Source: Parcubacteria group bacterium
Lineage (GTDB): Bacteria; Patescibacteriota; Minisyncoccia; Phycocordibacterales; UBA2163
Assembly: GCA_016784285.1 (NCBI GenBank)
Contig: JADHUX010000005.1
Span: 1-15,062, forward strand
Direction of reading: 5' to 3'
DNA length: 15,062 bases
Of this stretch, positions 2,446 through 15,062 are shown piece by piece; position 1 is the first letter of the stretch, and each line of letters begins with the position of its first letter. The translations under genes were made by a program, and so were the position numbers. Under the pieces are notes generated by a model, which saw only the letters and a list, made by a program, of their open reading frames with translations, searched no databases and was not told the DNA's origin.

Positions 2446-2479
2446 CTTTCCTTGCTACGGAGCGTAGCGAAGTAGAAAG
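2446..2479. repeat. Strong stem-loop after the M50 gene
   Basis: Inner stem 2451-2459 with 2463-2472 (one bulged base, 3-nt loop) extended by an outer CTTTC/GAAAG stem. It begins 18 nt after the stop. No T-run follows, so it is not a standard intrinsic terminator; it may stabilise the 3' end or be a dispersed repeat copy. Confidence 0.6.
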
Positions 2480-2534
2480 GAGGGAACTTGAGGAGCGACA
2501 AAAAATGGCTTTAAATAAGAACATTTCATCGCTA

Positions 2535-2563
2535 TTGACAAGCTAGTTAAGATATGTTAGTAT
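2535..2563 (+). promoter_or_regulatory. Promoter of the 77-aa gene
   Basis: TTGACA (2535-2540), a 17-nt spacer, TAGTAT (2558-2563) preceded by TGT (extended -10). A perfect TATAAT at 2561-2566 overlaps but would need a 20-nt spacer. Confidence 0.55.
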
Positions 2564-2630
2564 AATGACATTAAGTTGGATCTTTGTAAATAAAGAAATT
2601 TACTTTTTACTTTTTTTGAAAGGAGTTAAA

Positions 2631-2864: not shown

Positions 2865-2932
2865 TGATTTAGAAAAGTTAATCCTCCGTTCATTTATTTT
2901 TCTAATTTTTAACTTTTTGAAAGGAGTTAAAA

Positions 2933-3340
2933 ATGAAATACCTACGTACATTATTTATCGTTGCAGTAATTTCTGTTTTTTCACCATCAGTTTTTGCGCA
3001 AGAGCAAGTATTACCAAGTTTTTTGGTGGAAGACCTTGTCAATTTTGTGAAAGTCCCTTCCGCTACCGCTCAAGATAGTTTAGGATCAGCTTTTGGCGAT
3101 CTCAAACAAACTTGCCAGGATTATTTAGATTCTGGTGAATACGAGAAGTCAAAAGAAGTTTTAGCAAGGCAGTACGCTTATGCTAAAACAGATGAGGAAA
3201 GGAAAGCTGTTGTTTCGGCTTATGCTGAACTTGAGAAAATGAAGGAAGTCGCTGAGGCATTCACTGCAAAACCGACACCAGAACAGCAGAGAATACTTGA
3301 AGAAGCTGGAAAAGAACTCAGGACAATGTTTGAAGGATAG
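2933..3340 (+). CDS. Small exported alpha-helical protein, function unknown
   Basis: 135 aa. Residues 1-22 form a clear Sec signal peptide: MKYLR, a hydrophobic core, and a likely type I cleavage after SVFA, before QEQ. There is no lipobox Cys. The mature part is about 113 residues, helical by composition, with repeated short helices that resemble tetratricopeptide-like pairs (DYLDSGEYEKSKEVLARQYA, then TDEERKAVVSAYAELEKMKE), but no family could be assigned. One Cys (CQDYL) is present, so no intramolecular disulfide. The start is fixed by AAAGGAG at 2920-2926, 6 nt before the ATG, within a leader nearly identical to that of the upstream gene. A long hairpin terminator follows. Confidence 0.8.
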   Translation: MKYLRTLFIVAVISVFSPSVFAQEQVLPSFLVEDLVNFVKVPSATAQDSLGSAFGDLKQTCQDYLDSGEYEKSKEVLARQYAYAKTDEERKAVVSAYAELEKMKEVAEAFTAKPTPEQQRILEEAGKELRTMFEG

Positions 3341-3370
3341 GTTAAATCACAAGATTTCAGCAATAGTTAT

Positions 3371-3418
3371 AATGACCAAGTAATACATTTAGTTTATGTA
3401 TATGCTTGGTCATTTTTT
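3371..3418 (+). terminator. Intrinsic terminator after the exported-protein gene
   Basis: AATGACCAAG (3371-3380) pairs with CTTGGTCATT (3405-3414); an inner ATACAT/ATGTAT stem extends it; T-run at 3413-3418. Confidence 0.85.
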
Positions 3419-3427
3419 ATTTACCCG

Positions 3428-3455
3428 TTGCATTTTTCTGGCTTTGTAGTATATT
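3428..3455 (+). promoter_or_regulatory. Promoter of rpsL-rpsG-fusA
   Basis: TTGCAT (3428-3433), a 16-nt spacer, TATATT (3450-3455). Predicted start about 3462, exactly where the leader hairpin begins. Confidence 0.5.
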
Positions 3456-3461
3456 GTATTT

Positions 3462-3483
3462 ACTTGCGAAAGCGGGTTTTTTT
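3462..3483 (+). promoter_or_regulatory. 5'-terminal hairpin plus T-run in the rpsL leader
   Basis: ACTTGC (3462-3467), GAAA tetraloop, GCGGGT (3472-3477), with two G-T pairs, then a run of seven T. It would sit at the very 5' end of the mRNA. It looks like a terminator but is too close to the predicted +1 to act as one on this transcript. Confidence 0.5.
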
Positions 3484-3500
3484 ATAGAAAATTTAGAGAA

Positions 3501-3908
3501 ATGTCCACAATTAATCAGTTAGTAAAAAAGAAGAGAAAGAAGGATGCCACAAAGTCAAAGACTGTGGCTCTTGGACGTGGATTTAATACATTAAAGAACA
3601 AGCCAGTTTTCTATAATTCACCGTTTAAACGAGGTGTATGTATAAAGGTGATGACAAAGACTCCTAAGAAGCCTAACTCTGCTGTACGAAAGGTAGCAAG
3701 AGTAAGACTTACAAATGGTATGGAGGTTACAGCATATATCCCAGGTATGGGGCACAACTTACAAGAGCACTCAGTAGTATTACTTCGAGGTGGTCGTGTG
3801 AAAGACATTGGTCTAAGATACACTGTAGTACGAGGAAAGCTTGATGCAGGAGGAGTAGAAAAGAGAAACAGAGGACGAAGTAAATACGGTACTAAAAAAG
3901 CTAAATAA
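3501..3908 (+). CDS. rpsL: 30S ribosomal protein S12
   Basis: 135 aa, longer than the usual 123-125. It begins [14 protein letters not shown] and carries the decoding-centre loops [13 protein letters not shown] and [19 protein letters not shown]. The second loop reads KDIGLRY where most bacteria have KDLPGVRY, one residue shorter and without the Pro. Between SK (19-20) and RGVC (44-47) there are 23 residues where Thermus S12 has about 10, giving an insert of about 13 residues containing [15 protein letters not shown]. From memory, similar inserts occur in Parcubacteria S12, so this may be lineage-typical. The start lies 17 nt after the leader T-run without a convincing SD (TTAGAGAA only). It is the first gene of rpsL-rpsG-fusA. 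Confidence 0.96.
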
Positions 3909-3916
3909 TTTTAATA

Positions 3917-4387
3917 ATGCGAAGAAAGATCAAAAAAAGAAAAGAGGTTGGGAAAGATTCAGTACATGAGTCTGTTAAGGTTGCAAAGTTTATTAATTAC
4001 GTAATGCAAGACGGTAAGAAAAACACCGCACGTAAGGTGGTGTACGACACACTTGAAGAGATAAAAACTAAAGAAAAGACAGACAAGCCGGCAGTACTTT
4101 TTGAATCTGCTTTGGACAATGTAAGTCCTAATATGGAAGTACGTTCACGAAGAGTAGGAGGTGCTAACTATCAAGTACCAAGAGAGGTACGACCTGAAAG
4201 ACGGTTACTACTTTCAATGCGTTGGATCATAGGTGCAGCACAATCTAAGAAAGGATCTCCAATGTACAAAAGACTTGCAGAGGAGTTAATACTTGCAAGT
4301 AAGAATGAAGGAGAAGCAATCAAGAAGAAAGAGAATATGCATAAGATGGCAGAGTCTAACAAAGCGTTTGCGCACTTTGCTTGGTAA
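3917..4387 (+). CDS. rpsG: 30S ribosomal protein S7
   Basis: 156 aa, the standard length. S7 nucleates assembly of the 30S head and lies at the mRNA exit channel. Recognisable segments are KFINYVMQDGKKNTARKVVY (25-44), FESALDNVSPNMEVRSRRVG (62-81), GANYQVPREVRPERR and the C-terminal KMAESNKAFAHFAW. It starts 8 nt after rpsL with no SD (TTTTAATAATG), so expression probably depends on translational coupling or unstructured A/T-rich leader sequence. No pseudoknot of the E. coli S7-repressor type is evident in the 8-nt gap. The N terminus is slightly more basic than usual (RRKIKKRKE). Confidence 0.97.
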   Translation: MRRKIKKRKEVGKDSVHESVKVAKFINYVMQDGKKNTARKVVYDTLEEIKTKEKTDKPAVLFESALDNVSPNMEVRSRRVGGANYQVPREVRPERRLLLSMRWIIGAAQSKKGSPMYKRLAEELILASKNEGEAIKKKENMHKMAESNKAFAHFAW

Positions 4388-4412
4388 TTTTATTAATAAT
4401 TAAATTAAACAA

Positions 4413-6557
4413 ATGGAAAGAGACTATCCACTAGAGAAAGTAAGAAACACAGGTATCATCGCTCATATTGACGCTGGTAAAACCACAACGACAGAGCGTG
4501 TGCTGTTTTATACTGGAGTGTCACATAAGATAGGTGAGGTACACGAAGGAGAGGCAACTATGGATTGGATGGAGCAAGAACAAGAGCGAGGTATTACTAT
4601 TACTTCTGCTGCTACAACAGCTTTCTGGACCCCAACATATGCAGATAAGGGAGATGAAAATAATAAATATCGTTTTAATATTATAGACACACCAGGTCAC
4701 GTAGACTTTACTGTGGAAGTTGAAAGGTCACTTAAAGTGCTTGATGGTGGGGTGGTAGTGTTTGACGGAGTGGCAGGAGTAGAGCCACAGTCAGAAACTG
4801 TATGGCGACAAGCTGATAAGTATAGTGTTCCGAGGATTTGTTTTATAAACAAAATTGATAGAACTGGAGCGTCATTTGAAAGGTCATATCAAACTATATT
4901 AGACAGACTTACAAAAAACGCAGTGCGAATGCAGATCCCAATAGGTGAGGAAGATAAGATGGAAGGAGTTGTAGACTTGCTTAAGATGAAAGCGTATTAC
5001 TTTGAAGGGCAAATGGGTATGGAGGTAAGAGAAGATGAAGTACCAGAAGACTTAAAAGCTGCAGCAGAAAAATATCGCGGTGAACTTATAGAAAAAGCTG
5101 TTGAGGATGACGAGGTTCTTATGAATGATTACTTGGAAGGTAAAGAGATTCCAGTGGATGCTATAAAGAAAGCTATAAGAAAAGCAACAATTGCAAATCA
5201 GTTTGTACCGGTGTTTACAGGTACAGCGCTGAAGAATAAAGGAGTACAGCTTGTACTCGATGCTGTTGTAGATTACTTACCATCACCTCTTGATATACCA
5301 TCAGTTAAGGGTATTGACCCTAAGACAGAAGAAGAGATAGAGCGAAAAGCATCAGACGATGAACCTTTTGCAGCGCTTGCTTTCAAGCTCCAAACAGATC
5401 CATTTGTAGGACAGCTCACTTACTTCCGTGTGTATTCAGGTACACTTGAGGCAGGTTCTTATGTTTACAACACAACAACAGGTAATAAAGAAAGAGTGGG
5501 ACGAATCTTGCGTATGCATGCAAACTCTCGTGAAGAGGTGAAAAAGGTTTATGCAGGAGAAATAGCTGCTGCTGTAGGACTTAAAGATACAAGAACGTCA
5601 GACACACTTTCAGATGAAACAAATCAGATTATTTTAGATAGGATTGAATTCCCAGAGCCTGTGGTAAACCTAAAGATAGAACCAAAAACAAAAGCTGATC
5701 AGGAAAAGATGGGTATTGCACTTAAGAAGCTTTCTGATGAAGATCCTACATTTAGAATATCTACAGATACAGAAACAATGGAGACTATCATCGCTGGTAT
5801 GGGTGAGCTTCACTTGGATATTCTAGTGGATAGGATGAAAAGAGAGTTTAATGTAGAAGCAAACGTAGGTAAACCACAAGTAGCATATAAAGAAACTATC
5901 CAAAAAGAAGCAGAAGCAGAAGTAAAATATATAAAGCAATCTGGTGGTCGTGGACAATATGGTCATGTGAAGATTAAGATCAAGCCACTTGAAACTCTTG
6001 AAGAAGATGCAAAGATACCTAAGAATGTCACAAGAGAAGAAGGGTTTGAGTTTGTAAACAATATTAAAGGTGGAGTTATTCCTATGGAATATATCCCAGC
6101 AGTTTCTAAGGGTGTTAAAGAAGGTATGCAAAGAGGTATTGTGGCAGGTTATAAGCTTGTAGATATTTCAGTAGACCTTTTTGATGGTTCTTTCCATGAT
6201 GTGGACTCATCTGAGATTGCTTTCAAGATCGCAGGTTCACAAGCTTTCCAGCAGGCAGCTGCAAAAGCAAAGCCAGTACTACTTGAACCTATTATGAAAG
6301 TAGAAGTAGTAACTCCAGAGCAGTTTATGGGTGATGTAACAGGTAATTTGAGTTCAAAACGTGGGCAAGTAGAAGGCATGGAAGATAGAGGTATGCTTAA
6401 GGTTGTAAATGCTAAAGTGCCACTTTCTGAGATGTTTGGTTACACTACTACACTTCGTTCAATGACAGAGGGACGAGCTTCATCTACTATGGAGTTTGAT
6501 CACTATGAAGTAGTACCACAAAACGTAGCTCAAGAAATAAAAGAAGCAAGAGGATAA
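4413..6557 (+). CDS. fusA: Elongation factor G
   Basis: 714 aa. EF-G is the GTPase that drives ribosomal translocation and, with RRF, recycling. G1 is AHIDAGKTT (17-25), G3 DTPGH (92-96), G4 NKID (146-149); the switch I region [10 protein letters not shown] is intact. Domain II carries [20 protein letters not shown], domain [20 protein letters not shown] and GMGELHLDI, domain [14 protein letters not shown] and the C-terminal domain [17 protein letters not shown]. All key elements are present and there is no sign of a split into EF-G1/EF-G2-type specialisation. It starts 25 nt after rpsG in an A/T-rich, SD-less context. It is the last gene of its unit, closed by a 44-bp perfect-palindrome terminator. 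Confidence 0.98.
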
Positions 6558-6567
6558 TTTTAAAATA

Positions 6568-6611
6568 AAAAAACTCTTGAATTAACTCTAGAGTTAATTC
6601 AAGAGTTTTTT
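6568..6611. terminator. Intrinsic terminator after fusA (44-bp perfect palindrome)
   Basis: Perfectly self-complementary, centred on TCTAGA, flanked by AAAAA on the left and a T-run on the right, so it could work from either strand. Confidence 0.9.
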
Positions 6612-6622
6612 CTTTAATTCAT

Positions 6623-6648
6623 AAGTACTACAGTTAACTGTAGTACTT
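6623..6648. repeat. TTAA-centred palindrome, copy 2
   Basis: Perfect 26-bp palindrome: arm AAGTACTACA, core GTTAAC and the complementary arm. It starts 11 nt after the fusA terminator. Confidence 0.88.
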
Positions 6649-6650
6649 GC

Positions 6651-6676
6651 AACTAGTCCAGTTAACTGGACTAGTT
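6651..6676. repeat. TTAA-centred palindrome, copy 3
   Basis: Perfect 26-bp palindrome with arm AACTAGTCCA and core GTTAAC, only 2 nt from copy 2. It is followed by AGGT, as are copies 4 and 7. Confidence 0.88.
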
Positions 6677-6784
6677 AGGTTCTTACTTTCATTTGCCTTT
6701 TTTTGAGGTTTGTGTAGAGTGGTATGTAGAAGTTTTTAGTATAAATTGAATATTTCTTATAAATTTAGGAAAGGTGGCATAAAA

Positions 6785-6988
6785 ATGGAAGAAGTTGTAA
6801 TGACTGGTGGATGGCTTACGTTTCATTTAGTTATATGGGGTACAATAGCTGTTGGTTTTTTTGTGTTACTTTATTTTTTTATGAGCCGTGGCGACAGAAT
6901 TAAAGAATTGGAAGAAGAAAATAGAGAACTAAAACTTGAAGATGAAAAAGAGAGGATAAGAATAGCCACACGTACACACATTGATTAA
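6785..6988 (+). CDS. Small single-pass membrane protein with C-terminal coiled coil
   Basis: 67 aa, not recognised. A short N terminus (MEEVVMTGG), a transmembrane segment at about residues 10-33 (WLTFHLVIWGTIAVGFFVLL), a positively charged SRGDR just after it, then a charged helix with Leu heptads (IKELEEENRELKLEDEKERI, about 38-57) likely to form a cytosolic coiled coil. Topology is inferred from the positive residues after the membrane segment. The ATG at 6785 is chosen because AAAGGTGG (6770-6777) precedes it by 7 nt; the in-frame ATG at 6746 has no such site. The gene sits alone between the fusA terminator plus palindromes and a hairpin ahead of tuf, breaking the str operon. Base composition and SD use differ from the ribosomal genes around it. 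Function unknown. Confidence 0.75.
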   Translation: MEEVVMTGGWLTFHLVIWGTIAVGFFVLLYFFMSRGDRIKELEEENRELKLEDEKERIRIATRTHID

Positions 6989-6995
6989 TTTTAAA

Positions 6996-7027
6996 GGCAG
7001 GGAACTCACTAGTACGAGTTTCCTGCC
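6996..7027 (+). terminator. Stem-loop after the 67-aa membrane protein gene
   Basis: 12-bp stem: GGCAGGGAACTC (6996-7007) with GAGTTTCCTGCC (7016-7027), one G-T pair, 8-nt loop. There is no proper T-run, so termination is probable rather than certain. Confidence 0.55.
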
Positions 7028-7044
7028 TATATTCATATCAAATC

Positions 7045-7073
7045 TTGCGCTTTTTGGTGGGTTCTGGTACTAT
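7045..7073 (+). promoter_or_regulatory. Promoter of tuf-rpsJ
   Basis: TTGCGC (7045-7050), a 17-nt spacer, TACTAT (7068-7073) preceded by TGG (extended -10). Expected start about 7080, giving a leader of about 94 nt. A perfect TATAAT at 7157-7162, 11 nt before the ATG, could be a second, nearly leaderless start site. Confidence 0.5.
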
Positions 7074-7173
7074 ATCTACATATCGCCTTGTGCGCTTTTT
7101 TGTAATGTGCACGAGCTTTGTCGCTAAAAAGGGGGATATTGGTAAATTTTATTAATTATAATCATAAATTATT

Positions 7174-8367
7174 ATGGCAGAAGCATTTGACAGGTCAAAG
7201 CCTCACGTAAACGTAGGTACAATTGGCCACGTTGACCACGGAAAAACAACTTTGACTGCATCTATCTTGCATGTTCTTAATCTTGCAGGAATGACAGTGA
7301 AGATGAAGAAGGTTGACGAAATTGACGGAGCACCTGAAGAGAAAGCAAGAGGTATTACTATCTCACTTTCTCACAATGAGTACGCAACAGACAAACGTCA
7401 CTACGCACACATTGATGCACCAGGTCACGCCGACTATATTAAAAACATGATCACAGGAGCCGCACAGATGGACGGCGCAATACTTGTGGTTGCAGCATCT
7501 GACGGTGTAATGCCTCAGACAAGAGAGCATATCCTACTTGCAAAACAGGTTGGTGTACCAAAAATTATCGTATTTCTTAACAAAGTTGATCAGGTTGACG
7601 ACAATGACCTAGTTGACCTTGTAGAAGAAGAAGTTCGTGAACTTCTTACGCAGTACGAATTTGATGGAGAAAACGCTCCAGTTATACGTGGTTCAGGTCT
7701 TAAAGCACTTGAAGCATCATCAATAGATGACGAATGGGCAAAGAAAGTTATGGAACTTGCAGATGCTCTTGACGAATACATCCCACTTCCAGAAAGAGAA
7801 ATGGACAAACCATTCCTAATGCCTATTGAGGACATCTTCTCAATTGAAGGGCGAGGAGCGGTAGTAACAGGAAGAATTGAAAGAGGTGTAGTAAAGGTAG
7901 GAGAAGAGATTGAAATCGTAGGTATTAAAGAGACAGCAAAAACTACTGTTACAGGTATTGAGATGTTCAACAAGAACCTTGACGAAGGTCAAGCAGGAGA
8001 CAATGCTGGTATCTTGGTTCGTGGTCTTAAAAAAGAAGAGATCCACAGAGGACAAGTACTTGCAAAACCAGGTTCTGTAACACCTCATACTGAGTTTGAA
8101 GCAGAAGCTTATATTCTAAAGAAAGAAGAAGGAGGACGACACACACCATTCTTTACAGGTTATAAACCACAGTTCTACATCAGAACAACTGACGTAACAG
8201 GAGAGGCAACTCTACCTGAAGGAACAGAGATGGTAATGCCTGGAGACACAACAACATTTACAGTGAAGCTGGTATCACCAGTTGCTCTAGAAGAAAAGCA
8301 AAAGTTTGCTATTCGTGAAGGAGGTAAAACTGTTGGTGCTGGAGTTGTGACAAAGATCATTGCATAA
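7174..8367 (+). CDS. tuf: Elongation factor Tu
   Basis: 397 aa, the standard length. EF-Tu delivers aminoacyl-tRNA to the ribosome in a GTP-dependent way. G1 is GHVDHGKT (18-25), switch [10 protein letters not shown]3 DAPGH (81-85, with Ala where most bacterial EF-Tu have Cys), G4 NKVD (136-139) and G5 GSGLKAL (usually GSALKAL). Domains II and III follow, with [13 protein letters not shown] and the C-terminal [15 protein letters not shown] intact. His85, the residue that activates GTP hydrolysis, is present. It starts in an A/T-rich context without an SD (AAATTATTATGGC) and is followed 8 nt later by rpsJ, so the two are probably co-transcribed. A single tuf copy is seen here; a second elsewhere cannot be excluded. 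Confidence 0.98.
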
Positions 8368-8375
8368 ACTTAAAT

Positions 8376-8750
8376 ATGGCTACAACAGCGACAACTAAAA
8401 CTAAAAAAGCGCCTGCTAAAAAGAAAGCGTCAAAGAAAGACGAAGCGCCAAAGATCCGAATTCGTGTGCGTGCATACGAACATAAGATCTTAGACAGTTC
8501 TATAAAACAAATCATAGACACAGTGCTTCGTTTTGATGCAAAGGTGGTGGGACCCATCCCACTTCCAACGGAGATTAAGAAGTATACTGTAAACCGTGCA
8601 TCATTTGTTTACAAAGATGCTCGTGAGCAGTTTGAGATGAGGGTTCATAAAAGGGTGATAGACATCCTAAGCCCATCTCCGAAGATAGTAGAAGCGCTTA
8701 CAAACTTAAGCTTACCGTCTGGAGTCAATATTGACATAAAGATGGTTTAA
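8376..8750 (+). CDS. rpsJ: 30S ribosomal protein S10 with Lys/Ala-rich N-terminal extension
   Basis: 124 aa against about 100-105 in most bacteria. The extra 25 or so residues are at the N terminus ([20 protein letters not shown]), low-complexity and basic, and probably disordered. The S10 fold starts at about residue 28 ([16 protein letters not shown]) and includes the conserved [20 protein letters not shown] and the C-terminal [13 protein letters not shown]10 belongs to the 30S head and in other bacteria also partners NusB in antitermination. Here it is coupled to tuf rather than to rplC: a strong terminator lies directly after it. No shorter start fits better, as no internal ATG precedes the core, so the extension appears genuine. 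SD absent. Confidence 0.96.
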
Positions 8751-8753
8751 AAC

Positions 8754-8793
8754 AAATAAAAAGCCCTTCGCTTAAGCGAAGGGCTTTTTATTT
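8754..8793. terminator. Intrinsic terminator between rpsJ and rplC (40-bp perfect palindrome)
   Basis: A/T-flanked GC-rich stem: GCCCTTCGC paired with GCGAAGGGC around a central TTAA, followed by TTTTTATTT. It starts 3 nt after the rpsJ stop. Symmetry makes it potentially bidirectional. Confidence 0.92.
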
Positions 8794-8820
8794 GCATTTC
8801 AACCAGCATTGTAGTACTAT
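8792..8820 (+). promoter_or_regulatory. Promoter of rplC-rplD-rplW-rplB
   Basis: TTGCAT (8792-8797), a 17-nt spacer, TACTAT (8815-8820). The -35 overlaps the last two bases of the rpsJ terminator. Expected start about 8827. Confidence 0.5.
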
Positions 8821-8834
8821 ACAGAGACTTATTT

Positions 8835-8856
8835 AGAAGCTCTTCGCTTCTTTTTT
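8835..8856 (+). promoter_or_regulatory. Near-5' hairpin plus T-run in the rplC leader
   Basis: AGAAGC (8835-8840) pairs with GCTTCT (8846-8851), 5-nt loop, then six T ending 8 nt before the ATG. Same layout as the rpsL and rpsS leaders. Confidence 0.5.
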
Positions 8857-8864
8857 GTTAAAAT

Positions 8865-9458
8865 ATGACTAAATTCATAATTGGAACAAAACAAAATATG
8901 ACTCAAATCTTCGATAATGAAGGTAAGGTCCACCCAGCAACTGTACTTAAGGCAGAGCCTACTTCTGTGACTCAGCTAAAAAGTAAAGAAAAAGACGGCT
9001 ATGAAGCAGTACAAGTAGGTTATGGTGAACGAAAGGAAAAGAATATAAACAGTGCTCAGAAAACTAAAGGTAATTTTGCAGGATTTAAAGAATTTGAGGG
9101 TGTAGGAGAATACAAAGTAGGCGACAAGATAGATATTTCTAGTTTTGAAGAAGGAGACAGGATAGAAATCGCTTCTATTTCAAAAGGTAAGGGTTTCCAA
9201 GGTGTGGTAAAGCGTCACGGTTTCCACGGTGGGCGACGTTCACACGGTCAGAAGCATTCAGAAAGAGAGCCAGGTTCTATTGGTGCAACAGGTCCACAAA
9301 GAGTGTTCAAGGGTAAGAAGATGGGTGGCCGTATGGGAACTGACAGAGTAACTTTGAAAAAAGTTGAAATACTTCAGATCGATAAAGAAAACAATCAGCT
9401 TGTAGTAAGAGGTGCGGTACCTGGAAGAAAGGGGACTGTTGTTGAAATAAAAGGATAA
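8865..9458 (+). CDS. rplC: 50S ribosomal protein L3
   Basis: 197 aa, compact for L3 (about 205-210). L3 is an early assembly protein whose long loop reaches the peptidyl-transferase centre. Hallmarks: IIGTKQNMTQIFDNEGKVHP at the N terminus, SISKGKGFQGVVKRHGFHGG (124-137 region), SHGQKHSEREPGSIGA and KGKKMGGRMGTDRVT. The C terminus ends in AVPGRKGTVVEI. The start codon follows TTAAAAT directly after the leader hairpin's T-run and lacks an SD. This is the first gene of a four-gene unit separated from rpsJ by terminator and promoter, unlike the usual single S10 operon. Confidence 0.97.
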   Translation: MTKFIIGTKQNMTQIFDNEGKVHPATVLKAEPTSVTQLKSKEKDGYEAVQVGYGERKEKNINSAQKTKGNFAGFKEFEGVGEYKVGDKIDISSFEEGDRIEIASISKGKGFQGVVKRHGFHGGRRSHGQKHSEREPGSIGATGPQRVFKGKKMGGRMGTDRVTLKKVEILQIDKENNQLVVRGAVPGRKGTVVEIKG

Positions 9459-9462
9459 TAAT

Positions 9463-10233
9463 ATGGAAACTAAAGTATACAATTTGGAAGGAAAAGAAAC
9501 AGGAAAGGTAAATCTACCCGAGAGTGTTTTTAACTTGCCTTGGAATGATGATCTTGTACATCAGGTTGTAGTATCTCAACAGAGTAATTTACGAACTCCT
9601 GTCGCGCACACTAAAGACAGAAGTGAAGTAAGAGGTGGTGGTAGAAAACCATGGCGACAAAAGGGTACAGGTAGCGCACGACACGGTTCAAGACGCTCAC
9701 CTATATGGAGAGGAGGAGGTATAACCTTTGGTCCACGTAACGACAAAGACTATAGCAAAAAGATAAATAAAAAGATGAAAGCAAAAGCACTTTTCACAGT
9801 ACTTTCACGAAAACTTAAAGACGGTGAAATAATCTTCGTTGATTCATTTGCATTCGCAGAACCAAAAGCTAAAAAAGCAAAAGAAGTAGTATCAAACCTT
9901 TCAAAGATTGCAGGTTTTGACACACTTTCTACAAAGAGAAAAAACGCAGCACTGTTTGCACTTGGTATTAAAGACAAAAATACAGAAAAAAGTTTCCAAA
10001 ATTTTGGAAATATTTCAGTTGATGAAGCTCGTAACTTAGATCCACTTGATATTCTTACATACAAGTATCTAGTAGTTTCAGATCCTGAAAATGTAATCAA
10101 ATTTTTGGAAGGTAAAACAAAAGGTAAAGTTGATCCGTCAGCTGGCGGAAAAAAAGAGGTTAAAGCTCCTGCTAAGAAGCCAGCCCGTTCGACAAGCTCA
10201 GGGCAGGCAGCTGAAAAAGTAATAAAGAAATAA
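9463..10233 (+). CDS. rplD: 50S ribosomal protein L4 with repeat-bearing C-terminal tail
   Basis: 256 aa; typical L4 is about 200-210. The core includes the exit-tunnel loop RSEVRGGGRKPWRQKGTGSA and the following RHGSRRSPIWRGGGITFGP, then the globular domain ending near YLVVSDPENVIKFLEGK. From about residue 217 there is an extra tail of about 40 residues that is not part of the fold. Within this tail two DNA repeats are read in frame: a 16-bp near-palindrome (10134-10149, DPSAGG) and a 25-nt repeat (10188-10212, STSSGQAA) identical to one in rplV. It also shares APAKKPA coding sequence with the start of rplW next door. L4 in some bacteria represses its own operon, but no such leader structure was identified here. 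Starts 4 nt after rplC, no SD. Confidence 0.95.
   Translation: METKVYNLEGKETGKVNLPESVFNLPWNDDLVHQVVVSQQSNLRTPVAHTKDRSEVRGGGRKPWRQKGTGSARHGSRRSPIWRGGGITFGPRNDKDYSKKINKKMKAKALFTVLSRKLKDGEIIFVDSFAFAEPKAKKAKEVVSNLSKIAGFDTLSTKRKNAALFALGIKDKNTEKSFQNFGNISVDEARNLDPLDILTYKYLVVSDPENVIKFLEGKTKGKVDPSAGGKKEVKAPAKKPARSTSSGQAAEKVIKK
10134..10149. repeat. In-frame palindromic repeat B, copy 1 (rplD tail)
   Basis: TCCGTCAGCTGGCGGA, one G-T-type mismatch from a perfect palindrome. Read as PSAGG, in the same frame as copies in rplW and rpsQ. Confidence 0.8.
10188..10212. repeat. In-frame repeat A, copy 1 (rplD tail)
   Basis: 25 nt identical to 12812-12836 in rplV and in the same reading frame (STSSGQAA). Contains TTCGACAAGCTCAGGG, which I recall as a common dispersed repeat motif in several bacterial genomes. 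Confidence 0.85.
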
Positions 10234-10234
10234 T

Positions 10235-10702
10235 ATGGCATTGTTTGGATCAAAAAAGAAAAAAGACTTGTCCGCAGAAGCTTCAGCGAAGGCGGAAGCT
10301 CCAAATCCGCCAGCTGGCGGAGAGGTTAAGGAGGTAAAGAAAGCTCCTGCTAAAAAACCAGCTGTAAAAAAGGTTGTTAATAAAGCTCCTGCGGTTGTAA
10401 AACCTCAAGCAAAAGAAAGTGTTAACTTTACATCGGTATTAGTGCAACCTCGTATTACTGAGAAAGCTACAGTGCAAACAGAGAACGGAGTGTATGTGTT
10501 TGAAGTTGCTACAGACGCTACAAAGAAAGAGATCGGAAGTGCCGTAAAGCATTATTACAATGTAAGTCCTGTAAAAGTAAATATAGTAAAGATCCCTTCA
10601 AAAAAGGTATCTTCACGAACAACACGAAAGAAAGGAGTAAAAGCTGGAGGTAAGAAAGCATATGTGTTTTTGAAAAAGGGAGATAAAATAGAAATTGTAT
10701 AA
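10235..10702 (+). CDS. rplW: 50S ribosomal protein L23 with long N-terminal extension
   Basis: 155 aa; normal L23 is about 95-100. The first 60 or so residues are extra, low-complexity and basic (KKAPAKKPAVKKVVNKAPAV). The L23 fold begins near residue 63 with SVLVQPRITEKATVQTENGV and includes the basic hairpin KIPSKKVSSRTTRKKGVKAG, ending YVFLKKGDKIEIV. L23 forms the docking site for SRP and trigger factor at the tunnel exit, so an added flexible arm would sit where nascent chains emerge (inference). Two repeat elements are in frame within the extension: 10271-10296 (SAEASAKAE) and 10306-10321 (PPAGG). The start is one nt after the rplD stop (TAATATG). No ATG nearer the core was found, so the extension seems to be translated. 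Confidence 0.94.
   Translation: MALFGSKKKKDLSAEASAKAEAPNPPAGGEVKEVKKAPAKKPAVKKVVNKAPAVVKPQAKESVNFTSVLVQPRITEKATVQTENGVYVFEVATDATKKEIGSAVKHYYNVSPVKVNIVKIPSKKVSSRTTRKKGVKAGGKKAYVFLKKGDKIEIV
10271..10296. repeat. In-frame repeat C (rplW N-terminal extension)
   Basis: 26 bp bounded by TCCGC (10271-10275) and GCGGA (10292-10296), with an internal CTTC/GAAG hairpin. Encodes SAEASAKAE. Confidence 0.7.
10306..10321. repeat. In-frame palindromic repeat B, copy 2 (rplW extension)
   Basis: TCCGCCAGCTGGCGGA, a perfect 16-bp palindrome, read as PPAGG. Confidence 0.85.
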
Positions 10703-10707
10703 ATATT

Positions 10708-11550
10708 ATGAAGAAATATAAACCAACATCACCAGGAAGAAGAGGGATGACAGGTATCTTATACCGAGGTGTTTTGACTACATCAAAGCCGTATAAGCCA
10801 CTTACACGTGGTGTTAATCGATCTGTAGGACGAAACAGTGATGGGCGTATAACAACTCGTCATAAAGGTGGTGGACACAAAAGAGTATGGAGAGAGATAA
10901 GTTTTAAATATAATAAACGAGAAATAGAAGGAACTATAACAACAGTAGAGTACGATCCAAACAGATCAGGGTTTATCTCACTTGTAACATACAAAGACGG
11001 AGAAAAAAGATATATATTACTTCCACAGTCAATGAAAGTTGGTGACACTGTAGTAGCTTCAGCTGAAGCTAAGGTAAAAGTAGGTAATTCATTACCACTT
11101 AGTAAAATCCCAGTAGGTACATTTGTATACAATGTAGAGATCAAGCCAGACAGTGGTGCGAAGATTGCACGTTCAGCTGGTAACTACGCAGAAGTGATCG
11201 CAAATGACGGTGGCTTCGTACATCTTAAGATGCCGTCATCTGAAATTAGAAAAGTAAGTGAAAAAGCTTGGGCAACAGTCGGAGAAGTAAGTAATGAAGA
11301 ACATAGACTTGTGAACATTGGTAAAGCAGGACGAGCAAGGTGGATGGGACGACGACCGACAGTACGTGGATCTGCGATGAACCCAGTAGACCACCCACAT
11401 GGTGGTGGAGAAGGGCATGCAGGACGTGGACGAAGACGAGCTATCTCTAAATGGGGTAAACCAACAGGAAAAGGACAGAAGACAAGAACTCCAAAGAAAT
11501 ACTCAAATCAACTAATAGTAAAAAGAAGAAAAGTAGGAAAGAAACGATAA
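10708..11550 (+). CDS. rplB: 50S ribosomal protein L2
   Basis: 280 aa, the usual length. L2 is required for subunit joining and peptidyl-transferase function. Evident segments: KYKPTSPGRRGMTGI at the N terminus, GRITTRHKGGGHKRVWREI, the central beta domain with YDPNRSGFISLVTYKDGEKR, the strongly conserved loop NPVDHPHGGGEGHAGRG with the functional His in HPHGGGEG, and a basic C terminus NQLIVKRRKVGKKR. No extra tail is present, unlike L4, L23 and L22. It starts 5 nt after rplW without an SD (AATATTATG) and ends its transcription unit at a strong terminator, whereas in most bacteria rpsS follows directly. Confidence 0.98.
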   Translation: MKKYKPTSPGRRGMTGILYRGVLTTSKPYKPLTRGVNRSVGRNSDGRITTRHKGGGHKRVWREISFKYNKREIEGTITTVEYDPNRSGFISLVTYKDGEKRYILLPQSMKVGDTVVASAEAKVKVGNSLPLSKIPVGTFVYNVEIKPDSGAKIARSAGNYAEVIANDGGFVHLKMPSSEIRKVSEKAWATVGEVSNEEHRLVNIGKAGRARWMGRRPTVRGSAMNPVDHPHGGGEGHAGRGRRRAISKWGKPTGKGQKTRTPKKYSNQLIVKRRKVGKKR

Positions 11551-11557
11551 AAATAAA

Positions 11558-11594
11558 AACAAAAACATCGAGGTCCGACCTCGGTGTTTTTGTT
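11558..11594 (+). terminator. Intrinsic terminator after rplB
   Basis: CGAGGT (11569-11574) pairs with ACCTCG (11578-11583), CCG loop; the stem extends outward through AACAAAAACA and TGTTTTTGTT, giving a built-in T-run. Confidence 0.9.
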
Positions 11595-11601
11595 AATCTG
11601 T

Positions 11602-11627
11602 AACCACTATAGTTAACTGTAGTACTT
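11602..11627. repeat. TTAA-centred palindrome, copy 4 (imperfect)
   Basis: Core GTTAAC, arms AACCACTATA and TGTAGTACTT with three non-pairing positions, one of them G-T. Same 26-bp frame with AA/TT ends as copies 2, 3 and 7; followed by AGGT. Confidence 0.7.
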
Positions 11628-11630
11628 AGG

Positions 11631-11650
11631 TACTACGATTAATCGTAGTA
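11631..11650. repeat. TTAA-centred palindrome, copy 5 (ATTAAT core)
   Basis: Perfect 20-bp palindrome, TACTACGATTAATCGTAGTA. The core is ATTAAT rather than GTTAAC, itself a compensated change. Confidence 0.85.
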
Positions 11651-11670
11651 GTCCAGTTAACTGGACTACT
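11647..11670. repeat. TTAA-centred palindrome, copy 6
   Basis: Perfect 24-bp palindrome with left arm AGTAGTCCA and core GTTAAC. Overlaps copy 5 by 4 bp. Confidence 0.87.
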
Positions 11671-11690
11671 TACGTTTATCTATTTATCAC

Positions 11691-11716
11691 AACCAGTCTA
11701 GTTAACTAGACCGGTT
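11691..11716. repeat. TTAA-centred palindrome, copy 7
   Basis: 26 bp, left arm AACCAGTCTA, core GTTAAC, one mismatched pair (11695/11712). Followed by AGGT. Confidence 0.82.
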
Positions 11717-11728
11717 AGGTAGACTGAC

Positions 11729-11757
11729 TTGCAGGGTTTGGTTGGGTGTATTATATT
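11729..11757 (+). promoter_or_regulatory. Promoter of the 48-aa membrane protein gene
   Basis: TTGCAG (11729-11734), a 17-nt spacer, TATATT (11752-11757). Expected start about 11764, 54 nt before the ATG. Confidence 0.45.
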
Positions 11758-11817
11758 TTAGGCAGAGAGTAAAGATTAAATTAGATAAATAATTATTTAG
11801 TTTTTTAGGAGATAGAT

Positions 11818-11964
11818 ATGTGGTCATATTTCTTTGCTGGCTCTGTTGCAGTAGGTATAACATTAGGTATAGTCTTTTTTGTCATTTTTGGACCTGTGAT
11901 AATTATGGCGCTTGCTGAAATTGTGACAGAAAAACTCGAGTCCGTATATCGTATGAAGGGGTGA
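11818..11964 (+). CDS. 48-aa single-pass membrane protein, function unknown
   Basis: A short gene. Residues about 3-36 are strongly hydrophobic (FFAGSVAVGITLGIVFFVIF then GPVIIMALA), enough for one long or two closely packed membrane segments, followed by a short charged tail EIVTEKLESVYRMKG. AGGAG at 11807-11811, 6 nt before the ATG, is a proper SD, and an own promoter is visible upstream. The 3' end runs into the stem of a terminator hairpin, which includes the stop codon. The gene stands alone between rplB and rpsS, in the same setting as the 67-aa membrane protein gene between fusA and tuf; the two proteins show no obvious sequence similarity. Function is unknown. The combination of SD, promoter and terminator makes it more credible than length alone suggests. 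Confidence 0.68.
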   Translation: MWSYFFAGSVAVGITLGIVFFVIFGPVIIMALAEIVTEKLESVYRMKG

Positions 11965-11981
11965 TTAATTTCACCCCTTTT
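11956..11981 (+). terminator. Intrinsic terminator overlapping the end of the 48-aa gene
   Basis: AAGGGGTGA (11956-11964) pairs with TCACCCCTT (11971-11979), loop TTAATT, short T-run. The TGA stop is the last part of the left arm. Confidence 0.82.
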
Positions 11982-11992
11982 GCTATGTTTTG

Positions 11993-12020
11993 TTGACATT
12001 TGGCCCTGATTTGGTAATAT
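11993..12020 (+). promoter_or_regulatory. Promoter of the rpsS-to-rplX unit
   Basis: TTGACA (11993-11998), a 16-nt spacer, TAATAT (12015-12020) preceded by TGG (extended -10). Expected start about 12027. The best promoter match in the window. Confidence 0.65.
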
Positions 12021-12026
12021 TCTGTA

Positions 12027-12048
12027 AAGCTCGCAGGAGCTTGTTTTT
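12027..12048 (+). promoter_or_regulatory. 5'-terminal hairpin plus T-run in the rpsS leader
   Basis: AAGCTC (12027-12032), GCAG loop, GAGCTT (12037-12042), then GTTTTT. The stem begins at the predicted +1 and ends 15 nt before the SD-less ATG. Confidence 0.55.
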
Positions 12049-12057
12049 ATAGTCAAT

Positions 12058-12402
12058 ATGTCACGATCACTCAAAAAAGGTCCATATGTAGACGAAAGCC
12101 TCCTAAAAAAGGTGGACGGCAAGAAACCCGACGAAGTCAAAGGGCCTATTAAGACATGGGCACGAAACAGTCAGATTTCACCAGAGATGGTAGGCTTTAC
12201 ATTTGGTGTTCATAACGGAAAGGAACATATAGAAGTGTTCGTTTCAGAAGAGATGGTAGGGCATAGATTAGGTGAATTCTCACCTTCAAAGAAATTCTTG
12301 CGACACGGAGGTAAAATGCAGAAAGAGCTAGAGCAGAAGAAGAAAGAATCAGAGATCGCTGCAGCAAAATCTGCTAAAGAAGCTGGAGACTCTAAGAAAT
12401 AA
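12058..12402 (+). CDS. rpsS: 30S ribosomal protein S19
   Basis: 114 aa; the core is the usual 90 or so residues with a C-terminal extension of about 20. Core motifs: [19 protein letters not shown], then [40 protein letters not shown] and [14 protein letters not shown]. The extra tail ([20 protein letters not shown]) is charged and helical, in line with the tail expansion seen in L4, L22, L23 and S10. S19 is located in the 30S head and contacts S13 and the A-site side bridge. It is the first gene of the last transcription unit, preceded by its own promoter, a 5' hairpin and an SD-less start (AGTCAATATG). Confidence 0.97.
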
Positions 12403-12407
12403 TTATT

Positions 12408-12857
12408 ATGAAAGCGTATCTCAAAAATTACAGACAAGCACCTCGTAAAGTTCGCCTTATTGCAGATCTTGTTCGTGGTAAGAAAGTTGATCGTGCTCTT
12501 ACACTTCTTTCTGCTACAGATAAAAAAGCAACACTACCTTTCAGAAAGTTAGTTGAGTCTGCAGTTGCAAATGCAAAAAGTTCTGGTGCTAAGAAAGAAG
12601 ATTTAATAGTAAAAGAGATACAAGTAAACGAAGGTATAGTATTCAAGCGATACAAACCTCGTGCACGTGGTAGAGCATCAGCAATACGTAAAAAGACAAG
12701 TCACATCTCTGTTGTTTTAGGAGAAAAGAAAAACAAAGAAATGAAAGCTAAAGCTGAGACTAAAAAGCCAGTAGCTAAAAAAGCTAAACCAGCTGCAAAA
12801 AAAGTACCCACTTCGACAAGCTCAGGGCAGGCAGCTAAGAAAACAATAAGAAAATAA
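12408..12857 (+). CDS. rplV: 50S ribosomal protein L22 with repeat-bearing C-terminal tail
   Basis: 149 aa; typical L22 is 110-115. The core starts directly at MKAYLKNYRQAPRKVRLIAD and contains RGKKVDRALTLLS and the tunnel-lining hairpin FKRYKPRARGRASAIRKKTS, then SHISVVLGEK. From about residue 112 an extra Lys/Ala-rich tail follows (KAETKKPVAKKAKPAAKKVP) with the in-frame repeat A at 12812-12836 (STSSGQAA), identical to the L4 tail. The L22 C terminus lies near the outer surface around the tunnel exit, close to L23, so the tails of L22, L23 and L4 may be exposed (inference). Starts 5 nt after rpsS, no SD. Confidence 0.95.
   Translation: MKAYLKNYRQAPRKVRLIADLVRGKKVDRALTLLSATDKKATLPFRKLVESAVANAKSSGAKKEDLIVKEIQVNEGIVFKRYKPRARGRASAIRKKTSHISVVLGEKKNKEMKAKAETKKPVAKKAKPAAKKVPTSTSSGQAAKKTIRK
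12812..12836. repeat. In-frame repeat A, copy 2 (rplV tail)
   Basis: 25 nt identical to 10188-10212, same reading frame. The flanks differ (CCCG versus CCCAC), so the identity is limited to the element. Confidence 0.85.
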
Positions 12858-12858
12858 T

Positions 12859-13533
12859 ATGACACATACAGTACACCCATATGCACATAGATTAGGAATA
12901 CTAAGAGACTGGAAGTCTAAGTGGTTTTCTGCTGACCCTAAACGATATCGTGAATTTATAAAATGCGATACTAAGATTAGAGAATTTTTAAATAAAAAGC
13001 TAAGAGGATTTTATGTAAGTTCTGTAGAAATAGAAAGAGGAGAAAAGAAACTAAGAATTATTATAAAAACATCCCGCCCAGGTATGATCATCGGCAGAAG
13101 TGGTGACGGTGCTACAAAACTTAAAAATGAGATCGAGAAAGTTATTGGGAAACTAAAACTATCTGATAAGCAAGATATTAAACTTGATATAGAAGAAGTT
13201 AAAAACCCAGAATCAAACGCTGCAATAGTGGGGCAGATGGTAGCTGAAGCCCTTGAAAAGAGAATGACATTTAGACGTGTACTAAAGCAAACAGTAGAGA
13301 AGATTATGGCTAATCGTGACGTCTTAGGAGTAAGAGTATTAGTTAGTGGGCGTCTAGGAGGTGCTGAGATGGCACGTAAAGAGCAAATAAAGAAAGGGCG
13401 AATCCCGCTTCAGACATTCCGTGCGGACATTGATTTTGCAAGAGAAAAAGCACACCTTCCTTATGGAGTTATTGGTATTAAGGTTTGGATATATAAAGGA
13501 GATAAGTTTGAAGATAAAAAAGTAACAAAATAA
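12859..13533 (+). CDS. rpsC: 30S ribosomal protein S3
   Basis: 224 aa, the usual size. N-terminal VHPYAHRLGILRDWKSKWF, then the KH domain with IIKTSRPGMIIGRSGDGATK (GxxG loop at about IGRSG), and the C-terminal domain with RVLVSGRLGGAEMARKEQIK, RIPLQTFRADIDFA and LPYGVIGIKVWIYKG. S3 forms part of the mRNA entry channel and helicase site. The short C terminus (KFEDKKVTK) has no extra tail. It starts one nt after the rplV stop (TAATATG), a spacing shared with rplW, rpsQ and rplN, which suggests termination-reinitiation coupling in the absence of an SD. Confidence 0.97.
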   Translation: MTHTVHPYAHRLGILRDWKSKWFSADPKRYREFIKCDTKIREFLNKKLRGFYVSSVEIERGEKKLRIIIKTSRPGMIIGRSGDGATKLKNEIEKVIGKLKLSDKQDIKLDIEEVKNPESNAAIVGQMVAEALEKRMTFRRVLKQTVEKIMANRDVLGVRVLVSGRLGGAEMARKEQIKKGRIPLQTFRADIDFAREKAHLPYGVIGIKVWIYKGDKFEDKKVTK

Positions 13534-13535
13534 TT

Positions 13536-13952
13536 ATGTTGTTTCCAAAGAAAGTAAAATACAGAAAATGGCAAACAGGCCGTAAGAATCCAAAGAAGGT
13601 TGGCTCAGCAACTCGTGGTAATTCTCTTGCATTTGGTTCATTTGGACTTAAGTCAATGAAGGCTGTGAGAATACGATCAAATCAGATAGAAGCTGCTAGA
13701 AGAGTGATCTCACGAGCTATGGGAAAGAGTGGACGAATCTGGATACGAGTATTCCCAGACCGACCTTATACCGCTAAAGCAGCAGAGGTAGGTATGGGTA
13801 AAGGTAAAGGCGATCTACAAGGCTATGAGTTCCCGGTACTTCCAGGACACATACTTTTTGAAGTAGACGGTGTAGACGAAGCTATCGCACGTGAAGCACT
13901 TCGTAAAGCTACTGCAAAGCTACCACTGACTGCTAAAGTAATAAGCAGATAG
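13536..13952 (+). CDS. rplP: 50S ribosomal protein L16
   Basis: 138 aa, the usual length. MLFPKKVKYRKWQTGRK, then ATRGNSLAFGSFGLKSMKAV, RVISRAMGKSGRIWIRVFPD and the conserved MGKGKGDLQG loop, ending EALRKATAKLPLTAKVISR. L16 sits near the A site and central protuberance. In E. coli the residue just before MGKGKG is Arg81, which is hydroxylated; here that position is Gly (AEVGMGKGKG), so this modification is not possible at that site. Starts 2 nt after rpsC, SD-less. Confidence 0.97.
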   Translation: MLFPKKVKYRKWQTGRKNPKKVGSATRGNSLAFGSFGLKSMKAVRIRSNQIEAARRVISRAMGKSGRIWIRVFPDRPYTAKAAEVGMGKGKGDLQGYEFPVLPGHILFEVDGVDEAIAREALRKATAKLPLTAKVISR

Positions 13953-13962
13953 TTTAAATATT

Positions 13963-14154
13963 ATGGCAAAGAAAATAGATTTAAAAAATAAGAGTGACAA
14001 AGATTTACAAAAAGAACTTAACGATAAGCGAGAAGGTGTTCGTGCGTTTCGGTTTGGCATTGCAGGAAGTAAGATCCGTAATGTAAAAGAAGGAAGAGAT
14101 ACAAAAAAGCAAATCGCACAGATCTTGACTGAAGCTAATACAAGAAATAAATAA
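13963..14154 (+). CDS. rpmC: 50S ribosomal protein L29
   Basis: 63 aa, a typical two-helix L29. [20 protein letters not shown] is helix 1, followed by a short basic loop ([17 protein letters not shown]) and a second helix ending [13 protein letters not shown]29 lies at the tunnel exit next to L23. The match is weaker than for its neighbours because L29 is poorly conserved, but position between rplP and rpsQ and length support it. Starts 10 nt after rplP, AATATTATG context, no SD. Confidence 0.93.
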
Positions 14155-14155
14155 T

Positions 14156-14437
14156 ATGAATAAGGAAAATAATCCGCTAGCTGGCGGAAGACAAAAAAAT
14201 ACAGAGACAAAGAAACAAAAGACACTTTCAGGTGTAGTAGTTTCAGACAAGATGACAGATACAGCCGTAGTTGCTGTAGAGCGATATGTAAAACACCCTA
14301 AGTATGGTAAGTTCATAAAGCGACTTAAGAAGTATAAAGCGCATGATAAAGGTAATCAGTCTAAGATTGGAGACAAGGTAAGTATAGAGCAGACACGACC
14401 AATATCTAAAGACAAAACATTTAAGATAATAAATTAA
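14156..14437 (+). CDS. rpsQ: 30S ribosomal protein S17 with N-terminal extension
   Basis: 93 aa; typical S17 is 80-88. The fold begins at about residue 23 with [20 protein letters not shown], then [40 protein letters not shown]. The extra first 20 residues include the in-frame palindrome at 14173-14188 (PLAGG) and a basic stretch [11 protein letters not shown]17 is a primary 16S-binding assembly protein. It starts one nt after rpmC (TAATATG). No ATG closer to the core fits the family start, so the palindrome appears to be translated. Confidence 0.95.
14173..14188. repeat. In-frame palindromic repeat B, copy 3 (rpsQ extension)
   Basis: TCCGCTAGCTGGCGGA, one mismatch pair from a perfect palindrome, in the same reading frame as the rplD and rplW copies. 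Confidence 0.8.
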
Positions 14438-14438
14438 T

Positions 14439-14810
14439 ATGATTCAGCCACAGACATTAGTAAAAGTAACAGACAACTCCGGAGCAAAGATCGGTAGAGT
14501 GTTCAAGGTGCTAGGAGATTCAAAAAAACGGTATGCTCGTATTGGTGATATTGTGGTGCTTTCTGTACAAACTGCAGAGCCAAGAAAGTTAGTAAAGAAA
14601 AAGGAAGTTTTACGAGCTGTAGTGGTACGTCAAAAACAACCATTTAGAAGAAAAGATGGTTCATACATTTCATTTGACGAAAACTCTGTAGTAATAATAG
14701 ACAAAGAAAAGAAAGAGCCACGAGCAGGACGTGTGTTTGGACCAATACCACGAGAGATCGGTGAGCTTGGATACCAGAAGATAGTGTCACTTGCACCAGA
14801 AGTAGTATAA
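14439..14810 (+). CDS. rplN: 50S ribosomal protein L14
   Basis: 123 aa, the usual length. [20 protein letters not shown] is the typical N terminus, followed by [60 protein letters not shown] and [21 protein letters not shown]14 forms intersubunit bridge contacts and is the RsfS silencing-factor target in many bacteria. No extra tail. It starts one nt after rpsQ (TAATATG) without an SD. Confidence 0.98.
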
Positions 14811-14817
14811 AAATATT

Positions 14818-15033
14818 ATGAAAATCAAGAAAAATGACAAAGTAAAAATAATTGCAGGGAAAGATAAAGGTAAGACTGGAAAGGTTTTGCGCGCACTTCC
14901 TAAGCTAGATCAGATCATAGTAGAGGGTGTAAATGTAAAGAAGCGACATCAAAAACCAACACAAAGTAATCAGAAAGGTCAGATAATAGACAAGGTTATG
15001 CCTGTGCATGTTTCAAATGCTAAGAAAATATAA
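14818..15033 (+). CDS. rplX: 50S ribosomal protein L24, short form
   Basis: 71 aa against about 100-105 in E. coli. The KOW motif [20 protein letters not shown] is complete, then [20 protein letters not shown] and [20 protein letters not shown]. It ends at HVSNAKKI; the C-terminal part found in most bacteria (often with CPxCGK in others) is missing, yet a clean TAA stop is followed 2 nt later by the next start, so this is a naturally short version and not a frameshift. L24 initiates 50S assembly. Starts 7 nt after rplN, AATATTATG, no SD. Confidence 0.95.
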
Positions 15034-15035
15034 AT

Positions 15036-15062
15036 ATGATTCATATAAAAGACAGACAAAAA
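15036..15062 (+). CDS. rplE: Start of next gene, probably ribosomal protein L5 (partial)
   Basis: Nine codons are visible (MIHIKDRQK), starting 2 nt after the rplX stop in the same SD-less context (AAATATG). In the standard order rplX is followed by rplE, and a basic helical N terminus is compatible with L5. The identity rests on position only. Confidence 0.5.

Follow-up and report, generated by a model that had tools for sequence, protein, structure and literature searches.

Dispersed palindromes in a Phycocordibacterales genome share their cores with palindromes flanking a TrpR-like gene

A family of short palindromes is dispersed in contig JADHUX010000005.1 (C23) of a Parcubacteria group bacterium (order Phycocordibacterales; assembly GCA_016784285.1, here G000). 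The contig stretch analysed, positions 1 to 15,062, is referred to as the window; the assembly comprises 376,478 bases in 43 contigs and is 70% complete. Palindromes of the same core stand on either side of a TrpR-like gene in this and other genomes of the order, and the core tracks the recognition helix of the encoded protein, an association that we regard as practically certain.

Palindromes of the window and their dispersal

The seven palindromes, none of which has a strand assigned, carry cores of two main types, GTCCAG (termed new type) and CTACAG (termed old type). The copy at 904-923 (perfect, 20 bp; new-type core GTCCAGTTAACTGGAC) sits within a metallo-beta-lactamase-type open reading frame (ORF; 432-1382; PF00753). 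Two perfect 26-bp copies follow at 6623-6648, with the old-type core CTACAGTTAACTGTAG that also surrounds the TrpR-like gene of G004, and at 6651-6676, with a new-type core; the identical 26 bp of the latter are found twice on contig C31 and on C20. A second cluster starts with an imperfect copy at 11602-11627 (10/13 pairs; old-type right arm). It continues with a perfect 20-bp copy with an ATTAAT centre at 11631-11650 (CTACGATTAATCGTAG), overlapped by 4 bp by a perfect 24-bp copy with a new-type core at 11647-11670, and ends with a copy of core GTCTAGTTAACTAGAC at 11691-11716 (12/13 pairs), of which a perfect version, AACCGGTCTAGTTAACTAGACCGGTT, lies on C20 (L062 4164-4189). All seven are present where the initial annotation had located them, and its description of them was accurate: five are perfect, six are centred on GTTAAC and that at 11631 on ATTAAT, the copies at 6651, 11602 and 11691 are followed by AGGT, and the four 26-bp copies, by sequence, start with AA and end with TT. 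The TTAA centre it had called invariant is so within the window only, since the centres of related families differ from it.

The window contains seven perfect TTAA-centred palindromes whose arms measure at least 8, whereas 200 dinucleotide shuffles gave 0.045 on average and never more than 1; for arms of at least 10 the counts were six and none. The first count consists of six family copies and a non-family hairpin at 8753-8794, which is also included in the second. The word AGTTAACT occurs 13 times in the assembly compared to three times for the reversed control word; ten of these occurrences lie in family palindromes (six in the window, two on C20 and two on C31) and three do not. Counting the ATTAAT copy at 11631, the whole-genome search that had been proposed thus yields at least 11 family copies. 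A covariance model built on 27 copies gave 20 strand-matches in the assembly at E 0.01, and matches in 34 of the 397 genomes of the order, among the genus-mates in G004. The word CCAGTTAACTGG was present in 11/397 genomes, with ten copies in G258 and eight in G276, where the control word was absent, and TACGATATATCGTA, the core of another such family, in 58/397 genomes with the control word in none. Shuffles, control words and the word counts across assembly and order rule out a chance origin of the palindromes. The longer word AGTCCAGTTAACTGGACT was found in none of five genus-mates; across genome contigs it matched exactly in five stretches, two of them titled Candidatus Paceibacterota, and the other three (Leptolyngbya, Abditibacteriales, Herbivorax) are taken as chance, with about four expected by our own estimate.

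A genome typically has a core of its own, or a small number of them, such as ACTACAGTTAACTGTAGT in G024, GTGCAGTTAACTGCAC in G356 and TTTGTACAGTTAACTGTACAAA in G346, with more than one core in G197, G228 and G328. Although the outer arms vary between copies, the copies, 14 to 68 bp in length, are perfectly palindromic. We also observed close pairs of palindromes in G024 (L140 1544-1600, L141 7999-8052, L143 1525-1562, L144 1973-2009), which give the impression of a second core set within a first; in some cases their outer flanks are able to pair mutually. TACGATATATCGTA itself occurs nine times in G003, a genome of the same genus without a detected gene, and twice in G000.

An Rfam scan of the window detected no family at gathering score, and searches of plasmid records and distant blastn searches with 11580-11760 returned no match. 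At 904 three relatives align across the stretch without an indel, so that a simple insertion is not supported for this copy. The G002 sequence at this position is symmetric in 7/10 pairs, which may be chance or a relic; G002 has neither the gene nor a match to the covariance model.

The TrpR-like gene and its recognition helix

On contig C31 a 146-codon ORF (2015-2455, minus strand) is bracketed by two family copies, 22 bp before its start and 19 bp after its stop. The protein matched PF01371 (Trp_repressor) with 43.1 bits and that of G276 with 35.9 bits (cut-off 27). The TrpR and HisR equivalog cut-offs were not reached, either for TIGR02531 (31.3 vs 42.2 bits) or for TIGR01321 (18.2 vs 67.25). 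A structure model reached a mean predicted local distance difference test score (pLDDT) of 83.9, with low confidence in the C-terminal third; its best Protein Data Bank matches were TrpR-like proteins (probability 1.00, target template modelling score up to 0.79, E-values of at least 0.055), and the profile comparison with 3kor gave an E of 3.6e-8. The protein is accordingly modelled with a TrpR-like fold.

The unit of gene and palindromes lies in G000 between two genes which we take to be tig and yidC. These are adjacent in G002 and G005, where the unit is absent, and separated by a longer gap, also without the unit, in G001; the flanks around the site are too diverged to define the ends of the unit. 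In G004, whose rplB is 95% identical, the gene occupies the same position and its two flanking palindromes have changed alike to a different core. A phage origin was rejected, as tblastn with the G000 protein against 50,697 phage records gave no match and, among viral contigs, 11 stretches matched a pattern with none confirmed. A keyword search of the open-licence literature returned no description that we recognised of a TrpR-like gene flanked by palindromes of its own core.

A profile of six such proteins, searched against the 397 genomes, matched in 87, and 70 of the 118 gene matches, chosen mostly by score and length, were examined. At 54/70 loci perfect palindromes sharing a half-core of at least 6 flanked the gene at a distance of up to 350 bp on either side, and at 63/70 when quasi-palindromes were included, compared to 456/4792 and 693/4792, respectively, in a cross-locus control between different genomes. 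In the 54 loci the median distance of the upstream palindrome from the start was 11.5 bp and that of the downstream palindrome from the stop 15 bp; at some loci a palindrome abuts the start codon or includes the stop codon. Cores beside the genes include TACGATATATCGTA, TATCATATATGATA, CTACATTATAATGTAG, GTACGATCGATCGTAC, TCCAGTATACTGGA and CTTACGGTTAACCGTAAG. TrpR-like paralogues within one genome differ from each other; in G246 four of them stand beside four different cores, one of which is imperfect on one side. Gene and palindromes also tend to co-occur: the gene was detected in 19 of the 34 genomes with GTTAAC-type palindromes and in 68/363 others (p = 6e-6), and in 21 of the 26 genomes with three or more TACGATATATCGTA compared to 66/371 others (p = 5e-11).

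The core was compared with the recognition helix at 49 of the 70 loci, seven being absent from the protein alignment (L235, L241-L246) and 14 having no shared perfect core of 6. Core similarity correlated with helix similarity (r = 0.55), and still did so once the rest of the protein had been taken into account (partial r = 0.52, permutation p = 5e-4); the value for the core and the rest of the protein was 0.09 (p = 0.06). Numbering the core bases outwards from -1 next to the centre, the strongest single associations linked helix position 4 with base -4, position 8 with bases -3 and -4, and position 3 with base -6. An A at base -6 was found in 28/31 loci with Pro at helix position 3 and in 2/18 with another residue; a G at base -4 accompanied Arg at helix position 8 in 26/31 loci and a non-Arg residue in 3/18. 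When aligned to E. coli TrpR, helix positions 3, 4 and 8 correspond to Ile79, Ala80 and Arg84, which are three of the six DNA contacts of TrpR named in a passage of PMC9413887. The gene tree groups several families and mixes others, placing G030 (f26) with G246 (f85), and G120 (f45) with G012 and G193 (f8). Covariation of the inner core with a TrpR-type recognition helix is as expected for the duplex site of a dimer, and judging from these sequences the TrpR-like protein very probably binds the cores directly.

The two core types of the window fit into this pattern. The G000 protein has Arg at helix position 3 and GTCCAG cores around its gene; the G004 protein has Pro and a CTACAG core, and likewise that of G024, which belongs to another family. 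The 6623 copy is identical in 30/30 bases to a gene-flanking copy of G004 (L137 3207-3236), and 11606-11632 is identical in 27/27 bases, mismatch included, to the G004 copy upstream of tuf. The latter match suggests copying between places, with a repeated C-to-T change as the alternative. The mixed cores of the window would then record a switch of specificity from CTACAG/Pro (at the TrpR-79 position) to GTCCAG/Arg, with old sites left behind.

Arm symmetry, placement and possible origins

When 27 copies, 24 of them distinct, were compared across six genomes, both sides had changed in 11 of the 12 pairs, and the covariation score was reached in 0/500 shuffles; the arm covariation noted initially is thus real. 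It seems to have two sources, the core following the helix and the outer arms being symmetric to a sharp edge. Among 98 palindromes with arms of at least 8, the median arm was 14, with 52 arms of at least 14 and 14 of at least 20. Past the first mismatch complementarity drops abruptly, averaging 0.298 across ten positions, close to the background of 0.259, and this mismatch is of G-U type on either strand in 32/98, equal to random expectation. Compensatory selection would leave scattered mismatches; as the arms end abruptly, copying fits better than hairpin selection, so that of the two mechanisms initially put forward the copy mechanism is preferred.

Comparison of individual copies suggests that one arm has been copied from the other. 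One flank of the copy that follows the gene is common to G000 and G004 (TTAGGATTAT vs TTATGATTAT, gene orientation), while the opposite flank is the reverse complement of the shared flank in G000 and different in G004. G159 has two copies in the same context (GCGAGGA ... GACGCGGCAGTCTAG) with different perfect arms, of 28 and 30 bp, and an orthologous copy in G342 and G235 has T or C in one arm with the matching A or G in the other. The opening of hairpin-capped ends, as in P nucleotides, may be one route to this symmetry. Another, and a known one, is template switching between the arms of inverted repeats (PMC3820800, PMC8794818).

The placement of the palindromes relative to genes was determined for 90 non-redundant sites on 75 stretches outside the window, with crude calls of ORFs of at least 80 codons. 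We counted 29 sites in convergent, 44 in tandem and four in divergent gaps, nine inside ORFs and four at stretch ends; background gaps of at least 30 bp numbered 40 convergent, 139 tandem and 35 divergent. The difference between convergent and divergent gaps was significant by gap number (p = 5e-4) and by length (p = 0.009), as was the length-weighted convergent excess (p = 0.007), and in the suggested mapping to gene ends the copies thus favour convergent ends over divergent gaps. Copy number, at about ten per genome, is low for a repetitive extragenic palindromic (REP) family.

We consider it likely from these comparisons that the palindromes are dispersed, REP-like cognate sites of a TrpR/HisR-superfamily protein. 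A protein dimer would bind the 14-20 bp core as duplex DNA, and the copy upstream of the gene would be an autoregulatory operator: on C31 this copy covers the first hexamer of a promoter-like TGGACT-17-TATAAT, which makes autoregulation of the gene likely. DNA synthesis would fold back at the core and copy one flank onto the other, giving symmetric outer arms, and copies would most likely spread as REP-like repeats, with the gene and its two palindromes as the parent unit. Two of the initially listed candidates, REP-like elements and protein sites, were well chosen.

Several points weigh against this explanation. In the genomes compared, neither a copy nor the unit was seen to have moved. The gene was not detected at E 1e-6 in 15/34 genomes with GTTAAC-type palindromes and in 5/26 with three or more TACGATATATCGTA (G003, G022, G078, G109, G173), and the sampled stretches of two such genomes, G258 and G159, had no TrpR-like ORF at E 1; missing contigs, divergence or loss could lie behind these cases. 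Seven of the 70 loci had no matching palindromes by either test. Among 29 more distant TrpR-like genes elsewhere in the phylum, seven were flanked and 22 were not, which also indicates that palindromes do not flank just any TrpR-like gene. The residue-base association has exceptions and kinship was corrected by the partial test only, the length-weighted depletion in divergent gaps alone is weak (p = 0.08), and the gene's upstream promoter is known only by its match to the consensus.

An ordinary regulon, in which an autoregulated TrpR/HisR-type regulator would use the dispersed palindromes as operators of neighbouring promoters, appears rather unlikely to us. TrpR and HisR are such regulators, with lineage-specific 20-bp palindromic motifs and, for HisR, a site before the gene in nearly half of the genomes, according to passages of PMC9413887; the promoter-like hexamer under the upstream palindrome and the many tandem copies within about 100 bp of a downstream start also fit. 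However, sites are found after the gene and not just before it, nine of the 90 lie within ORFs, divergent gaps hold far fewer sites than convergent ones despite similar background numbers, and in more than half of the arms symmetry extends far past a TrpR-sized footprint.

RNA hairpins with a favoured tip, acting as terminators or 3'-end stabilisers, are an improbable explanation. The enrichment at convergent ends would suit them, several copies elsewhere have an A-rich start and a T-rich end (for example L147, L173 and L174), some copies in other genomes look like terminators, and the C31 copy after the TrpR-like gene was called terminator-like. However, none of the six window copies scanned, those from 6623 to 11691, was called, the cores vary along with the helix of a DNA-binding protein, and G-U type first mismatches show no excess; this initial candidate is therefore not favoured. 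The window clusters 6623-6676 and 11602-11716 each follow a terminator-like hairpin.

Classical REP elements moved by a REP-associated tyrosine transposase (RAYT) or IS200-type Y1 transposase are very improbable and were rejected: the placement of copies is REP-like and the assembly has six Y1_Tnp matches, but the stretches around all six hold no family palindrome, G004 combines five Y1 matches with three palindromes, and the 27 aligned copies show no common unpaired tag beside the stem. A different GTTAAC palindrome, ATCCCTATCGTTAACGATAGGGAT, was observed on C30 (L097 2277-2300), about 500 bp or less from a Y1_Tnp match.

Cognate sites of a TrpR-like protein spreading as REP-like repeats, our preferred explanation, might be extended to a selfish element of two parts in which no transposase can be recognised, a tentative idea that we think may well be wrong. 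A TrpR-type gene bounded by two of its own binding palindromes would seed solo palindromes by stalled DNA synthesis and fold-back copying, and protein and palindrome would co-evolve into separate families, as illustrated by the four paralogues of G246 beside their different cores. Under the preferred explanation itself, dozens of TrpR-like proteins, each beside its own presumed site, form a natural series of protein-DNA co-evolution, from which the recognition code of the TrpR helix can be read and tested. The REP concept would gain a non-transposase partner, and the sharp edge of arm symmetry would stand as a clean signature, left in nature, of templated copying among uncultivated Patescibacteria. 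It also cautions against taking covariation between palindrome arms as proof of hairpin selection.

Other features of the window and comparison with known systems

Two further perfect palindromes of the window, at 6568-6611 (44 bp) and 8753-8794 (42 bp), have A-rich starts and T-rich ends and probably act as terminators in both directions; perfect hairpins seem to be frequent in these genomes. The palindrome TCCGCCAGCTGGCGGA represents a second family, with one window copy inside an ORF (10306-10321) and nine further copies in 66 kb of the assembly sampled (L062, L064, L097). The 24-mer TTCGACAAGCTCAGGGCAGGCAGC is present at 10188-10211 and 12812-12835, near the 3' ends of two ribosomal-protein ORFs and in frame in both. 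After fusA and rplB small ORFs lie behind a promoter-like stretch (approximately 6690-6988 and 11720-11963); relatives (L027, L051, L138) have, by eye, a similar promoter-like stretch with a different small ORF behind it, which gives the impression that this is a place where small genes are swapped. The longer stretch GCGGGAAAAGGT ... GAGGAGCGA is also dispersed and is found at about 2435-2510 of the window, in L062 (3950-4040) and in L138 (2864-2945), and in G004 it directly adjoins a family palindrome.

Dispersed sites and dispersed hairpins are known from other systems. Phage stoperators are repressor sites dispersed in intergenic gaps, as are the palindromes described here, but they are phage-borne and asymmetric. 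Fungal mitochondrial PstI palindromes and double-hairpin elements are dispersed hairpins which likewise show compensatory arm changes but are not known to have a protein partner.

The arrangement is best read as resembling a REPtron without a recognisable transposase. REPs lie mostly between tandem and convergent genes, and the REP/RAYT REPtrons described in PMC3733652 share with the present system short dispersed palindromes in such gaps, some of them paired, clustered or inside genes, a gene flanked by copies, and a repeat-specific pairing of gene and repeat. The partner here, however, is a TrpR-type DNA-binding protein and not an HUH/Y1 transposase, no GTAG or CGTC tag was seen by eye outside the stem in the 27 aligned copies, and the arms vary between copies yet stay perfect.

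With TrpR and HisR (YerC), as portrayed in passages of PMC9413887, the system has in common the PF01371 domain, the TrpR-like fold predicted here, a palindrome of about 20 bp with a TTAA or other centre, a lineage-specific motif and likely autoregulation; the TrpR motif given there is TGTAcTnGTnnACnAgTACA, and HisR motifs are lineage-specific. It differs in the longer protein with an extra C-terminal part, in sites on both sides of the gene and many away from divergent promoter gaps, and in symmetric arms that reach beyond the footprint. Quasipalindrome template switching (PMC3820800, PMC8794818) offers a similar, known mutational route by which inverted-repeat arms become identical and hairpins can stay perfect; it is described there as a mutation process, whereas in the present case its target would be a family of dispersed repeats for which a protein-binding core provides the seed.

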